A DNA stretch of 64,000 bases from Thermotoga sp. KOL6 (GTDB taxonomy: Bacteria > Thermotogota > Thermotogae > Thermotogales > Thermotogaceae). How positions within the stretch are numbered: the stretch's first letter is position 1; each line of letters begins with the position of its first letter. The notes beneath the pieces were generated by a model, which had not been told where the DNA came from, made no database searches, and worked only from the letters and a program-made list of their open reading frames with translations. This document shows positions 23,291-29,692 of the stretch, in pieces. The position numbers and the translations under genes are program-made. Location of the stretch: positions 372,001-436,000 of the forward strand of contig NZ_LNDE01000002.1 of NCBI RefSeq assembly GCF_002866025.1, written 5' to 3'.

Positions 23291-24550
23291 TCATTCACCG
23301 TATTCTTCCTTCAAATATTCTTTTATCTTCTGATCAGCCGTCTTTATTGCCGTTTCCATATCCACTTTTCCGTTCACGAAGTCGGAGAACATGTTTCCAA
23401 CCACCGTTCTGATCTCGTACCATACCCCGATCTGTGGATCGAACACGGCATTGTCGATCTGTTTCAAGGGGATCTCGAGCAGCGGGTCAGACTTTGCAGC
23501 TTCTTTCCAGATAGATGTTTCAAGAGCGCTTCTTCTCACGGGTATGTATCCGGTATGTATAGCCCAGTAAGCGGTGACTTCTGGTGAGATGAGGTACTTC
23601 ATGAATTCCCAAGCTGCTTTCTTCTCTTCTTCAGAGGCCGTGTTGAACATGATGATATCGGTTCCGGCGAAGGGTACTTTATTTGTCACCCACGTGGGAA
23701 CGGGTGCCCAGCTCCAAGTGAATTTTCCTTTCGTGGATTTCTCAACGTAGGGTCTCCCGGCTATCGTGCTTATGTACATCATAATCTTCTGCTGTCCAAA
23801 GATCCCGTCCAGGTATCCGCCCTGATAGTACGCGATACCATCGTCCACCATCTTCTTCACAAACGCGAGCACTTCTCTTGTTTCTTTGCTGTCGATATTG
23901 GATACCCATTTTCCATCAACTTGCTTCAGGATGGATCCACCTCTGAGAGTGAGGAGTATCTGGAAGAAGTCAACTGTCGTCCTGAAGCCGAAGCCGTACT
24001 GATCTGTTTTGCCGTCGCCGTCAAGATCTTCCGTCATGAGTCTCGCGGCTTCGTAGAGCTCATCAATCGTCTTTGGAACGTCCACGCCGTACATTGCAAA
24101 GGCATCTGCATTGTAATAGAGTACGTAAAGACTCTTGTTAAAAGGAACAGCGTATATGGTGTCTCCCCACATACAGTTCTTTCTCAGAGGTTCAAATATA
24201 TCCTCCCATTCTTCCTTTGTGAGGCCTATCTTAGGATCGTTCACGAACTCGTTCAAAGGTTGAACAACTCCGCTTTGAATGAGCTTGGCAGTCCAGTTAG
24301 AGTAAGCCTGGGAGATGGTAGGAAGTTCGCCCGCTTGTGCAGCCGCAAGAAGCTTTTGAGAAAGTGCACCGTAGTTACCGACGTACACCGCTTCAACTTC
24401 GATATCGGGATGTAGTTCGTTGAACGTGTTCACTATCTCTTGTAGTGTCTTCCCGTGACCCCCTCCCATCGCGTGCCAGAAAGTAACTTTCACTTTTGCG
24501 AGCGCAAAGACGCTCAAAATCACCATGAGAAGCACCAGAAATTTTTTCAC
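23291..24550 (-). CDS. sugar-type ABC transporter substrate-binding protein
   Basis: Secreted solute receptor of about 419 residues, cluster B/MalE-UgpB type. The signal peptide is FLVLLMVILSVFALA; the mature part starts VKVTFWHAMGGGHGKTL and contains the extracellular solute-binding hallmarks LPTISQAYSNWTAKLIQ, GDTIYAVPFNKSLYVLYYN and the KKAAWEFMKYLISPEV stretch. Substrate unknown; HAMGG resembles glycerol-phosphate or oligosaccharide receptors. The GTG at 24550 is chosen because GGAGGG sits 6 bases ahead and the signal peptide then begins correctly; a longer frame adds 16 unlikely residues. Transcribed divergently from its two permease genes, with its own terminator. Confidence 0.92.
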   Translation of the reverse strand: MKKFLVLLMVILSVFALAKVKVTFWHAMGGGHGKTLQEIVNTFNELHPDIEVEAVYVGNYGALSQKLLAAAQAGELPTISQAYSNWTAKLIQSGVVQPLNEFVNDPKIGLTKEEWEDIFEPLRKNCMWGDTIYAVPFNKSLYVLYYNADAFAMYGVDVPKTIDELYEAARLMTEDLDGDGKTDQYGFGFRTTVDFFQILLTLRGGSILKQVDGKWVSNIDSKETREVLAFVKKMVDDGIAYYQGGYLDGIFGQQKIMMYISTIAGRPYVEKSTKGKFTWSWAPVPTWVTNKVPFAGTDIIMFNTASEEEKKAAWEFMKYLISPEVTAYWAIHTGYIPVRRSALETSIWKEAAKSDPLLEIPLKQIDNAVFDPQIGVWYEIRTVVGNMFSDFVNGKVDMETAIKTADQKIKEYLKEEYGE

Positions 24551-24586
24551 AGCGATCCCTCCTTTTCTATGGTTTCTCCACAAGGA

Positions 24587-24606
24587 ATTATACCGCATAG
24601 TATAAT
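24587..24606. promoter_or_regulatory. divergent -10 boxes between binding protein and permeases
   Basis: TATAAT on the minus strand at 24587-24592 (facing the binding-protein gene) and TATAAT on the plus strand at 24601-24606 (facing the permeases) lie 8 bases apart. The -35 regions are weak on both strands, so activation by a regulator is possible. Confidence 0.5.
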
Positions 24607-24645: not shown

Positions 24646-25911
24646 ATGAAGCGCTCGAGCAAACTACGAGAGGCCGTCTTAGCGTATCTTTTTTTGCTTC
24701 CCTCTATCGTGATCCTTGGAATGTTCGTTTTCTGGCCAGTTGGTTTTTCATTCGTTTTGAGTTTCTTCAAATGGGACTTTCGAAACATGAAGAATCCTTA
24801 TTTCACGGGTTTTAACAACTACGTGGAAATCTTCCGCTTCGATTATCCACCGAAATACTCGTTTATCTTCACCGTCTTGAACACGTTCTTTCATCTTGCG
24901 GTTGCCAGTGCCATTGTACTTTTGATTTTGAATTTCATTCGAAAGAAAAAATCTGTGGTGAGCGTTCTCGCAAATTTCCTTATAATCTTTGTCTATGTGA
25001 TGTTGAACGTTTTCGACCTTGAAAATCCCATACTCTCCTTTTTTGTGGCCTCTGTCTCTTGGTCTTGGTTGCTCTACGATCTCAAAAAAACGAAAGTGAA
25101 GAACAGTTGGGCTTGGTTCATTCTCTTTCTTTTGGTGTTCGTCCTTGTAGAACTTCATTCTTCTCTTCCTGGTGTAGTGAACTTTCTACTAGACGCGAAG
25201 GATAAGAATCTGTTCTTAAAAGCACTCACCAACACCTTGTATTACGTGGTTCTCAGTGTTCCTTCGCAGATATTCATATCCCTCGTGATAGCCCTTCTTC
25301 TGAACTCCAACGTGAAACTTCGGGTATTCTTCAGGACGGCTTACTTCATACCTTTCGTGACATCCGTTGTTGCCATCTCCCTCGTGTGGAAATGGATTTT
25401 CAACGACGAATTTGGTTTGCTGAACTACATCTTGTCTTTCTTCAACGTGGAGCCCATCTCTTGGTTGAAAGATGAGAGATGGACTATCCCGACTATCGCC
25501 ATTGTTTCCGTTTGGAAAACGGTTGGATACGATGCTGTCATATTCCTTGCGGGACTCCAGAACATAGATCGATCATACTACGAAGCTGCTGAAGTGGATG
25601 GGGCAAATTCTTTTCAGAAGTTCTTTTACATCACTTGGCCACTTCTGTCTCCAACGACGTTTTTCTTACTCATAGTATCCCTAATAGGTGCCTTCAAAGT
25701 TTTTGCCGAAGTCTACATCCTTTACGACGGGCTACCGGGTCCTTACAACAACAGCGGTATGACACTCGTGTACTATGTGTTTGATCTCTTCTACAGACAG
25801 CAGAGAATGGGGATCGCTTCGGCAGCTGCTTACATACTCTTTGCGATCATACTCATTTTCACGTTCGTTCAGTACAGATTCGGAAGAAGAGCAGTGGAGT
25901 ATGTCTCGTGA
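24646..25911 (+). CDS. sugar-type ABC transporter permease, MalF/UgpA-like
   Basis: Membrane subunit of about 421 residues. The N-terminus (AYLFLLPSIVILGMFVFWPVG, seen here as LLPSIVILGMFVFWP) is typical of MalF/UgpA. Between the first segment and the conserved core lies an enlarged region (about 70-180) with three or four extra hydrophobic helices. The core then follows with FRTAYFIPFVTSVVAISLVWKW (part: FIPFVTSVVAIS), and the ATPase-contact loop YYEAAEVDGANSFQKFFYIT (EAA motif). The ATG at 24646 is 7 bases after GAGAGG; the upstream in-frame ATG at 24625 has no ribosome site. It pairs with the next permease, 9 bases downstream. No ATPase gene is nearby, so a shared MsmK/MalK-like ATPase from elsewhere must be used. 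Confidence 0.9.
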   Translation: MKRSSKLREAVLAYLFLLPSIVILGMFVFWPVGFSFVLSFFKWDFRNMKNPYFTGFNNYVEIFRFDYPPKYSFIFTVLNTFFHLAVASAIVLLILNFIRKKKSVVSVLANFLIIFVYVMLNVFDLENPILSFFVASVSWSWLLYDLKKTKVKNSWAWFILFLLVFVLVELHSSLPGVVNFLLDAKDKNLFLKALTNTLYYVVLSVPSQIFISLVIALLLNSNVKLRVFFRTAYFIPFVTSVVAISLVWKWIFNDEFGLLNYILSFFNVEPISWLKDERWTIPTIAIVSVWKTVGYDAVIFLAGLQNIDRSYYEAAEVDGANSFQKFFYITWPLLSPTTFFLLIVSLIGAFKVFAEVYILYDGLPGPYNNSGMTLVYYVFDLFYRQQRMGIASAAAYILFAIILIFTFVQYRFGRRAVEYVS

Positions 25912-25920
25912 GGTGATAAC

Positions 25921-28029
25921 GTGAAGAAGCTGATTGTGTACCTTCTGCTCATCTTCGGTGCGATATTAATGCTTGGTCCTTTCGGCTGGATGGTACTCAC
26001 TTCATTCAAAGCGCCATCGGAAGTTCAACAATGGCCCCCGAGATTCTACACAAAGAATTTCGCTCTCTCACGTGATGTGAAAGTGATCCTGAAGCCGGGA
26101 GTCCAAAGAGTTGGGAAGAGTGTCAGTTTGAGAGAAGCCTACGCCCTCAAGACGAAGGAAGAAAATTTGTTGACCATAGTCGTCAACGACGATCCATTTC
26201 ACAGAGGAACGATGACGATACCGTTGAAAGAAGCAAGATACACTTCGAGTGTAGATATCGAAGAAGTGAAAAGAATCTCTTCGGAGTCTCCAGTGGAATT
26301 TTCTTGGAATACACCCGAGGAGTTCTTCGAATCCTTCTTCATCTATTACAAGAGCGGTGCGAATCCGTTCTTTCAAAGGTCCAGTCTGATGAACAAAATC
26401 TTGGGGTCGATAGACGGAGCGACGAAGATAATCTCCCAGATGAGGAGATTCATAAATGTGAGAATAAAGGACGAGTCCGAACGTGAAAGATTTCGTTCTT
26501 TTCTTGAAACGAAGGAGAAAGAGCTTCTCTCACTCAAAGAGAAAGTGGAAAGCATGAAGGCAGGAACAACACTCGTCCTCACCGATGAGGAGATAAGAAA
26601 ACTCTACGATCTTTTGAAAAGTGTCAACCTAAGATACACGGGTAGCAACCCACTCGTTTCAGTCTACACGAGTAGGGTAGTCGTTCCCATTGAAGAACTA
26701 AAGAAGAACATAGGTTACTATTTAGAGGTTGTCGATCTGTTTCAAAATGTGCAAAATCTAACGGTTGATAAAAACATAGTTGCAAAATCGATGACGAGAG
26801 ATGAGAGAAAAAATCTCTTTCTGGAAAAGATAAAAGATTTTCATGACAGGCAACTCGTCGAGAAACTGATGAAAGAATCGAAAGACAATCTGGTTGAAAG
26901 CTATGTTTCGTTGAAAGAAAAAGAGATTTCTGAGAAATACCATGTGGATCTTCTCACCATCGCTACTGTGAAACCTATCGTTTCTTCTTTAATTGGCTTG
27001 GCTCAGGAAAACAACATAGATACGTCCAACTTCGAACGAATGATGGAAGAACTGGAAGAACGTCTTTCAAACAGCACCACTTACAAGGTGTTGAAATCAA
27101 AAATCACACAACTCGATCTGGGAAGCGAATTTCTTAGTGCGATGGCAAGTTATCTCAAGGATATCACCTTTTTGAGGAAAGCTTATGAAGACGCTATGAG
27201 CTCTTGGAAAATAATCGAAGCTCCAGACTTCGTAAAAGAAGTGCGGGTGAAAGACGGTGAGGTAATAGAGATTCTTCTGGAAGGAGTCCCTTCGGTTTTT
27301 TTGAGTGACGAACCCATTGACTCCGTCAAACTCCGGTTTTCCTTCACTGAAATGCTTGCAAACCTCTTTCAAAACTACGTTGACGCGTGGAATGCCGCAC
27401 CGTTTCCAAGATACTACTTCAACACTTTCTTCGTCGCCAGCACAACAACGATTCTCGAAGTTATCGTGGCATCGCTCGCGGCTTACGCCTTTTCGTGGAT
27501 GGTTTTCCCAGGAAGAGATTTCATATTCGGACTCTACCTTGCCACAATGATGATACCCGGCGAGGTTCTTCTCGTGCCGAACTTCATCACAATATCGAAA
27601 CTCGGTTGGATCGACACGTATTACGCTCTGATCATTCCATGGATCGTCAGTGTTTTTGCCATTTTCCTCCTCAGACAACACTTTTTGACCATACCGAGAG
27701 AGCTCTTCGATGCGGCAAAAATAGACGGATGCTCTCACTGGAGATTTCTATGGCAGATCGTCGTGCCTCTCAGCAAACCAGCCGTGATCACCTCTGCTCT
27801 TCTCAAATTCGTTGGAAGTTGGAACGCTTTCCTCTGGGTTTTGATCGTGACGAATAGTGAGAACTATAGAACTCTTCCTGTGGGACTTCAGGCGTTCAGT
27901 TCCGATGTGGGGACTCAGTACAATCTACTCATGGCGGCGGCAACGTTTTCGATTCTTCCGGTTGTAATCTTGTTCATATTCACCCAGAAGTACTTCATAC
28001 AAGGAATTGCCAGAACAGGACTGAAATGA
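25921..28029 (+). CDS. sugar-type ABC transporter permease, MalG-like, with a ~430-residue loop insertion
   Basis: A 702-residue permease, more than twice the usual 270-300. TM1 (residues 3-28) and the family start of the first external loop (SFKAPSEVQQWPPRFYTKNF) are normal. The core resumes at about 475 (NYVDAWNAAPFPRYYFNTFF), continues through the remaining five segments and keeps the EAA-type loop LFDAAKIDGCSHWRFLW. In between lie about 430 residues predicted to be extracytoplasmic, rich in charged helices (probable coiled coil around 180-230 and 260-400). The reading frame is intact. GTG start after GAGGTGATAAC. MalF also carries an external P2 loop, but in the other subunit and shorter. 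Confidence 0.92.
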   Translation: MKKLIVYLLLIFGAILMLGPFGWMVLTSFKAPSEVQQWPPRFYTKNFALSRDVKVILKPGVQRVGKSVSLREAYALKTKEENLLTIVVNDDPFHRGTMTIPLKEARYTSSVDIEEVKRISSESPVEFSWNTPEEFFESFFIYYKSGANPFFQRSSLMNKILGSIDGATKIISQMRRFINVRIKDESERERFRSFLETKEKELLSLKEKVESMKAGTTLVLTDEEIRKLYDLLKSVNLRYTGSNPLVSVYTSRVVVPIEELKKNIGYYLEVVDLFQNVQNLTVDKNIVAKSMTRDERKNLFLEKIKDFHDRQLVEKLMKESKDNLVESYVSLKEKEISEKYHVDLLTIATVKPIVSSLIGLAQENNIDTSNFERMMEELEERLSNSTTYKVLKSKITQLDLGSEFLSAMASYLKDITFLRKAYEDAMSSWKIIEAPDFVKEVRVKDGEVIEILLEGVPSVFLSDEPIDSVKLRFSFTEMLANLFQNYVDAWNAAPFPRYYFNTFFVASTTTILEVIVASLAAYAFSWMVFPGRDFIFGLYLATMMIPGEVLLVPNFITISKLGWIDTYYALIIPWIVSVFAIFLLRQHFLTIPRELFDAAKIDGCSHWRFLWQIVVPLSKPAVITSALLKFVGSWNAFLWVLIVTNSENYRTLPVGLQAFSSDVGTQYNLLMAAATFSILPVVILFIFTQKYFIQGIARTGLK

Positions 28030-28042
28030 AGGAGGCGATAGT

Positions 28043-29692
28043 ATGAAAAAGTTAGTGATTTTCTTTTTGATTCTCTCTTCCTTGATCTTTGGAGCAACCT
28101 TTTATGGAAATCTTCACTCCCATACTTCCTACTCCGATGGGAAGGGAACACCGGACGAAGCTTACGAATATGCAAAGCAGTTTCTCGACGTGCTTGCGGT
28201 GACTGATCACGCTTATTATTTCGCTCAGAAGATAGACGGGAAGACCAAGCCTTATCTTACGAAACTCGCTGCGGAAAGGCATACAAAAGATGGTGAATTC
28301 GTTGCTCTCCAGGGTTTCGAATGGACGGCGGGTGTTGGTCACATAAACGTGTACGAATCGATCGAATGGATCGACAGAAACCAAGAGGGCTCCTTGGAGG
28401 GTTTCTACGCTTGGCTCGTGAAACATAAGAAACTTGCCCAGTTCAATCATCCCATAAGTAAGTTCGGCACCTTCGATTCCTTCAGGTACTTTCCCGAGGC
28501 TGATAAATACGTGAACCTGATAGAAGTTGGAAACGGGAATTGGTCCTCTGGTGACGTGATAAATCCTGAGATGTTTGGCAACTACATCTTAGCTCTGAAC
28601 AGAGGTTGGCATCTTGGAGCCACTGCCAACCAGGACAATCACAAACCAAACTGGGGTAGTGCGAACGACGCTAGAACTGGTATCATCGCTGATAAGTTGA
28701 CGTACGATGCCATCATGGATGCCCTTTGGAAAAGGCATACTTTTGGAAGTGAAGATAGGAACGTTCAGGTTCTCTTCAAGTCGGGAGAGCATCTGATGGG
28801 GGACGTTGTCTTCATCGATGATTTCTCACAAAAAACGCTGAGTATAGAGTACAAAGATACTGAGAAACTTCTCTATCTTGCTCTGATCTCCCAGAGTGGA
28901 ACGGTTCTCGAACTCAGACCTGGTACAGATCACTTGAAACTCGATCTGAAAGTCACTCCTCCAGATGGTTATGAGTGGTACTTCTTCTACATGAAGCAGA
29001 TGGACGGTGACGAGATCGTAACTTCCCCGATATGGTTCCAAATACCGTCTCCCGTTTATGTCAACAGCGTCAGAATTTCTCCAGAAGAAATCCACGCTGG
29101 AGAGGTTGCAAAACTGTACTTTGAAATATACAACACCACTGAAAACAAGGCGAAAGTTAATCTCATCATTTTGTTGGACGACGATCCGATCAGAAACGTA
29201 ACCCAGGAATTTGCACCTTACCAGCTCAAGAGATTCGTCGTTCCCACTGGAAAATTGGAAGAAGGGACACACAGAATTTCTTTCCTAGTGAATGGAAAAC
29301 TCGTCCAGTCGATTTCTTTCGTTGTCCAAGAAAAACTCAAAGGTGTCATCATGATAGACACCCTCCACGAGAACGACCATCTCGAAGAGTTGAGGGCACT
29401 CGCCGAAGAGTTGAAAAAAGCAGGGTACAACGTGATCTATCCGAAAGTGATGTTGAAGAACCTTGGAGGGATCGATATTCTCATCATCGCAACTCCGAAG
29501 GAAGGTGGCTTGAGTTTCGCCAAGAAACTCTCAAAAAAGGAATTGGAAGAGCTAGAAAAATTTGAAGGGAAATTGTACATAATACCGGGAGGAGATGAGG
29601 AGTACAGAGAGATCTATTTGAGTCAGCTGAAGGGAGAAGTGGTCACACTCGAGGAGCTGAGAAAGAGACTGCTTGGGGAGGGAGATAGTTGA
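28043..29692 (+). CDS. secreted CehA/McbA-family PHP-type metallohydrolase
   Basis: A 549-residue protein with a signal peptide (FFLILSSLIFGA) and a PHP metal-binding domain: NLHSHTSYSDGKG (metal His pair at the mature N-terminus), VLAVTDHAYY, LAQFNHPISKFG and HLGATANQDNH. This matches the CehA/McbA class, which includes phosphoester and carbamate hydrolases. A beta-sandwich domain of roughly 100 residues follows (about 330-430), then a Rossmann-like C-terminal domain with IPGGDEEYREI. It is the third plus-strand gene of the sugar-type ABC cluster (13 bases after permease two). It probably acts outside the membrane on the imported compound or its precursor; that role is inference. Confidence 0.85.
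   Translation: MKKLVIFFLILSSLIFGATFYGNLHSHTSYSDGKGTPDEAYEYAKQFLDVLAVTDHAYYFAQKIDGKTKPYLTKLAAERHTKDGEFVALQGFEWTAGVGHINVYESIEWIDRNQEGSLEGFYAWLVKHKKLAQFNHPISKFGTFDSFRYFPEADKYVNLIEVGNGNWSSGDVINPEMFGNYILALNRGWHLGATANQDNHKPNWGSANDARTGIIADKLTYDAIMDALWKRHTFGSEDRNVQVLFKSGEHLMGDVVFIDDFSQKTLSIEYKDTEKLLYLALISQSGTVLELRPGTDHLKLDLKVTPPDGYEWYFFYMKQMDGDEIVTSPIWFQIPSPVYVNSVRISPEEIHAGEVAKLYFEIYNTTENKAKVNLIILLDDDPIRNVTQEFAPYQLKRFVVPTGKLEEGTHRISFLVNGKLVQSISFVVQEKLKGVIMIDTLHENDHLEELRALAEELKKAGYNVIYPKVMLKNLGGIDILIIATPKEGGLSFAKKLSKKELEELEKFEGKLYIIPGGDEEYREIYLSQLKGEVVTLEELRKRLLGEGDS

Follow-up and report, generated by a model that had tools for sequence, protein, structure and literature searches.

The analysed window covers 64 kb (C2:372001-436000) of a 1.7 Mb genome, judged Thermotoga-like by its gene content and relatives, and contains two adjacent genes on the forward strand, at 24646..25911 and 25921..28029, whose products are, judged by sequence, the permease subunits of a type I ABC importer of the CUT1 group. 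Both exceed the Pfam cut-off for BPD_transp_1 (PF00528, 26.4 bits), with 80.8 bits for the core of the downstream, G-type subunit (G) and 68.2 bits for its F-type companion (F). The G frame starts with GTG, encodes 702 aa, and contains zero internal stops. Residues 1-44 comprise TM1 and the usual start of the periplasmic segment; residues 483-702 (27367..28026) form the permease core with the EAA region, which can be aligned to SugB, AlgM2, and MalG from transporters of known structure. Between these parts, the periplasmic TM1-TM2 loop (P1) is enlarged by about 440 extra amino acids (residues 45-482). According to alignment and structural models, this insert is composed of an N-terminal end (residues 45-110, 26053..26250), a fast-evolving helical middle (residues 111-424, 26251..27192), and a well-conserved C-terminal end (residues 425-482, 27193..27366). 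The middle is charged, with 48 K/R and 52 D/E among its 314 residues. A normal TM1 and core interrupted by a long, helical, and charged loop had been proposed in the first-pass annotation, and our analysis bears out each of these points, the helical character by prediction.

That annotation had also called G a MalG-type permease with a loop of about 430 residues. While the loop is confirmed, the MalG label did not hold, as model scores place G closer to UgpE. G scored 150 bits against the NCBIfam UgpE model (equivalog cut-off 297) and 72.7 bits against MalG (cut-off 261), and F scored 104 bits against UgpA (cut-off 335). A third gene on the reverse strand, at 23291..24598, encodes a binding protein for which UgpB is the nearest model (114 bits, cut-off 411). 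All three proteins stay far below the equivalog cut-offs, and by these scores the permeases appear closer to UgpE and UgpA than to MalG and MalF. The ligand residues described for UgpB of Phaeobacter (PMC12718374) were located via alignment to E. coli UgpB. Equivalents of Tyr64, Ser143, Gly303, Tyr342, and Arg393 appear to be kept, Glu88 and two Trp residues are not kept, and Ser266 is uncertain. A phosphate-containing ligand is plausible. The system resembles the sn-glycerol-3-phosphate importer UgpB-UgpA-UgpE in the nearest model of all three components and in several of these ligand residues, but differs from it in that the P1 loop of E. coli UgpE is only short.

The binding protein gene is listed with a start at 24598. 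This is probably too early, and the true start probably lies at 24550, because the orthologues within the genus have 419 aa and three of them carry a stop in the upstream stretch (24550-24598). Most genomes contain one clear orthologue of the protein. Whereas F adjoins G in nearly all Thermotogota loci examined, the binding protein gene is located away from the F-G pair outside the genus Thermotoga, and neither a binding protein nor an ATPase gene was found beside the pair in these loci. There, the pair lies in what we take to be a housekeeping-like cluster with an hslU-like gene upstream (L035, L040, L048, L056, L057, L062, and others), and in several genomes presumably also near hslV-, miaA-, and metK-like genes. 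In several genomes the binding protein gene is found near what we assume to be apt-, pgi-, and coaE-like genes; all of these names were read from N-termini.

Despite the usual lack of linkage, the most plausible reading is that F, G, and the binding protein form one system, because they are absent from the same lineages and joined in a paralogous operon. The three genes are jointly missing from three lineages (G010, G047, and G082/G083), and MalG1, the G subunit of another importer, is still present in G010, G082, and G083. Among the compared genomes that are at least 90% complete, the co-absence table reads 55/1/0/4 (Fisher p 1e-5, uncorrected for relatedness). The paralogous operon (L186:951-7753 of G058 C15) combines three related UgpB-like binding proteins with an F that carries an insert and a G of 566 aa. 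One complete genome, G042, keeps F and the loop-bearing permease but has no orthologue of the binding protein; relaxed selection on its loop was looked for and not seen. The genome under study encodes three OB_MalK-type ATPases and the 64-kb window none. As there is no ATPase nearby, the subunit is probably shared with other importers. Directly downstream of G, at 28043-29692 on the forward strand, lies a gene whose product has an apparent signal peptide and a match to a CehA/McbA metallohydrolase domain (119.6 bits). We considered this metallohydrolase and an FAD protein, likewise downstream, as members of the system and rejected both, since they stand next to it only in the genus Thermotoga; the CehA/McbA-type gene is found directly 3' of G in this genus alone.

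A profile of the loop matched 99 of 103 Thermotogota genomes and 35 of 38 genera, the four genomes that miss the permease being G010, G047, G082, and G083, and a long-loop orthologue was present in nearly all of 61 relatives. The importer is part of the core genome of the Thermotogota and found once in almost every member. This distribution across the phylum rules out a sequencing or assembly artefact, and the absence of the loop from relatives, named beforehand as the other observation that would speak against it, was not found. In four genomes (L007, L014, L065, and L093) the G gene is broken up over two reading frames, and in L192 (G041) the binding protein gene is split, which reflects either sequencing error or decay. 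Across 84,980 scanned species genomes, the loop turned up in no phylum other than the Thermotogota; hits had to contain a conserved motif beside the loop, and highly divergent sequences from other groups may therefore have escaped the scan. The motif was taken from alignment A2, which includes 20 core residues, because alignment A1 had no sufficiently conserved stretch. A scan of IMG/VR with the loop gave zero matches.

The insert has about 440 residues in Thermotoga and reaches about 540 in other orders, and its sequence varies far more than that of the core (mean top-residue frequency of 0.39 for the whole loop vs 0.83). Within the genus, dN/dS was 0.016 for the core and 0.14 for the helical middle of the insert, and ranged from 0.044 to 0.155 for its beta ends; these values are rough, as several pairs are close to saturation at synonymous sites. 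The insert is under purifying selection. Its most conserved parts are the beta ends next to the membrane, where R95 is near-invariant and G96 invariant in the N-terminal end, and where the last residues before the core are likewise near-fully or fully invariant. The high divergence and the change in length, together with the much shorter loop of the 566-aa paralogue, might be expected if the helical part were a lineage-specific addition of little function that is kept by drift. We regard this as highly improbable, given that the loop is retained in almost all genomes of the phylum, is predicted with a confident fold, and shows dN/dS values well below 1.

For full-length G, AlphaFold2 gave a pLDDT of 80.5, with most of the insert between 81 and 94 except for residues 61-78. 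The insert modelled alone with 33 sequences reached a pLDDT of 89.5 and a pTM of 0.79. In these models both ends of the insert supply strands, with about 13 helices between them. From their position, we read the strands of the two ends as one membrane-proximal beta region, and the predicted architecture would be that of a membrane-adjacent beta region interrupted by a helical part. When the loop was searched against Pfam, NCBIfam, and PDB sequences and by profile, only chance or coiled-coil-like matches to known domains came up. Foldseek with the loop model gave no match at E 0.001 or better, and a VIA search as a second look returned generic helical bundles over loop residues 83-234 with Z up to 9.2, so that neither search identified a clearly similar solved structure, and we assign the insert to no fold family. 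Part of the loop matches four-helix bundles, ligand-binding sensor domains among them, which could suggest that the importer captures or senses its substrate, or some other small molecule, through the insert. The matches, however, lie in a range that the tool's own note rates as common, the conserved residues are located in the beta ends and not in the helical part, and the system already has a separate binding protein. Such a role is very unlikely, and the substrate capture domain imagined in the first-pass annotation is unsupported, with a predicted fold that has no confident match and a helical part that evolves fast.

F, a UgpA-like protein of 421 aa, also differs from a standard permease. 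It carries about four extra hydrophobic segments at about residues 72-174 (24859..25167), recognised by hydropathy and surrounded by charges that fit the positive-inside rule, in agreement with the extra helices noted earlier for this protein. They are positioned between TM1 and the second core helix, which is the same topological place as that of the G insert, and the F orthologues of the Thermotogota share this arrangement. It is conceivable that the G insert packs on these segments and on the core, and thereby stabilises the complex in the heat or helps to coordinate its motions; the membrane-side beta ends, as the most conserved parts of the loop, would agree with such contacts. Yet the F insert itself is poorly conserved, the helical part of the G insert is larger than this role needs, and the loop also occurs in Thermotogota of moderate temperature such as Mesotoga, which leads us to consider a stabilising or gating function quite unlikely.

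Outside the phylum, the nearest relatives of G are permeases of about 340 aa, mostly from metagenome-assembled genomes (MAGs) of Candidatus Eisenbacteria and from some other MAGs. They share about 49-53% identity with G over residues 438-702 and have an insert at the same place, which in contrast to that of G comprises only about 45-60 residues, is probably beta-rich, and lacks the helical part. Their partner F has no extra segments and in other phyla is only 308-342 aa long. In a tree of the core, all long-loop proteins form one group (100/100), including the 566-aa paralogue of the L186 operon. Its loop of about 310 residues keeps both ends, and much of the helical middle is missing. Because this paralogue falls inside the long-loop group, its shorter loop is probably secondary.

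An enlarged P1 loop has been known in the phylum since 2008, when a 500-residue insert was described in MalG1 and MalG2 of the Thermotogales (Noll et al., PMC2246101). These proteins resemble the permease studied here in being CUT1 G subunits; their insert of about 500 residues likewise separates TM1 from TM2, is found phylum-wide, and is mostly helical by sequence. The permease described here adds a second example, from a different subfamily. In the genome under study, a MalG1-type permease is encoded at L031:4191-6692 (G000 C1, about 775190-777690); it has 833 aa, about 540 of them in a TM1-TM2 insert, and similar proteins are present in most Thermotogota. The MalG1 insert, however, begins about 20 residues further on, after a QHYKDLI motif, and the MalG1/MalG2 core belongs to the MalG clade, separate from that of G: in the core tree, MalG1 and E. 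coli MalG form a joint group (100/100) apart from the long-loop proteins, the E. coli rows being long branches. An hhalign comparison of the two inserts gave only a weak match of 46 columns in a helix at 48%. Homology of the inserts thus finds no support in this weak match, the different site, and the separate clades of the cores. Since the MalG1 insert occupies another site in a permease of another clade, the two inserts appear to have been acquired independently.

The recurrence of such a loop in a second importer of the same phylum would also fit an insert that works as a tether or spacer and anchors the importer to peptidoglycan, to the toga, or to outer-membrane proteins, with no specific interface to the binding protein. 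Restriction of the loop to the Thermotogota, which have a toga envelope, and rapid sequence change with a retained fold agree with this explanation. On the other hand, no domain known to bind the wall or envelope was identified in the insert, and a tether would not need the retained link to a binding protein. Taken together, we consider a tethering role unlikely, although less so than a stabilising one.

The reading that we favour, and whose chances we regard as evenly poised, is that the enlarged P1 loop serves as a docking or retention surface for the UgpB-like binding protein. The P1 loop of G would have grown into a folded periplasmic domain that consists of the membrane-side beta region and the helical part, and this domain would offer an additional surface on which the binding protein docks and is positioned or retained above the channel, with ATP hydrolysis supplied by an ATPase common to other importers. 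We propose this by analogy to the maltose importer of E. coli, in which MalG P1 and MalF P2 are reported to play such a part for MalE and to contact it (Daus 2007, as cited in PMC3150292). The G insert sits in the very loop of the G subunit for which this contact is reported there. MalF P2 offers a parallel as a folded periplasmic domain of a CUT1 permease that contacts the binding protein and is accompanied by extra membrane segments. It differs in belonging to the other subunit and another loop and in its size of about 180 aa (PMC2246101), so that the insert is, as suggested earlier, the larger of the two. No profile match between MalF P2 and the G insert was obtained, and a sequence relation was thus not found.

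Docking of the binding protein would be consistent with the confident prediction of a folded domain, with its maintenance by purifying selection in 99 of 103 genomes, and with the co-absence of the three components and their association in the paralogous operon. Several observations argue against it. Sequence variation is much greater in the helical part than in the binding protein, close relatives outside the phylum work without the helical part, and the G042 genome retains F and an unrelaxed loop in the absence of a binding protein orthologue. Of the earlier idea of a domain that captures either the substrate or the binding protein, the latter half stays plausible, based on the P1 site and the presence of a binding protein in the system, while the former is unsupported.

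The domain described here belongs to an importer that nearly all genomes of the phylum carry in single copy, and no description of it was found in the literature searched. Together with MalG1, it suggests that the envelope of the Thermotogota repeatedly favours such domains. A broader and more speculative possibility, which we consider rather doubtful, is that the G subunits of two unrelated CUT1 importers in this phylum each acquired a periplasmic P1 domain of 440-560 residues that adapts them to the envelope and holds or loads the binding protein in a novel manner. The loops form a natural length series, from about 45-60 aa in other phyla and about 310 in the paralogue to 440 to 540 in the Thermotogota, which can be used to test what the periplasmic loops of type I importers do, and the heat-stable proteins should suit structural work. 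A third importer of the same genome also has an enlarged first periplasmic loop: its OppC-like permease of 524 aa, encoded at L033:2376-3950 (G000 C2, about 326400-327950), carries an insert of roughly 200 residues after TM1.
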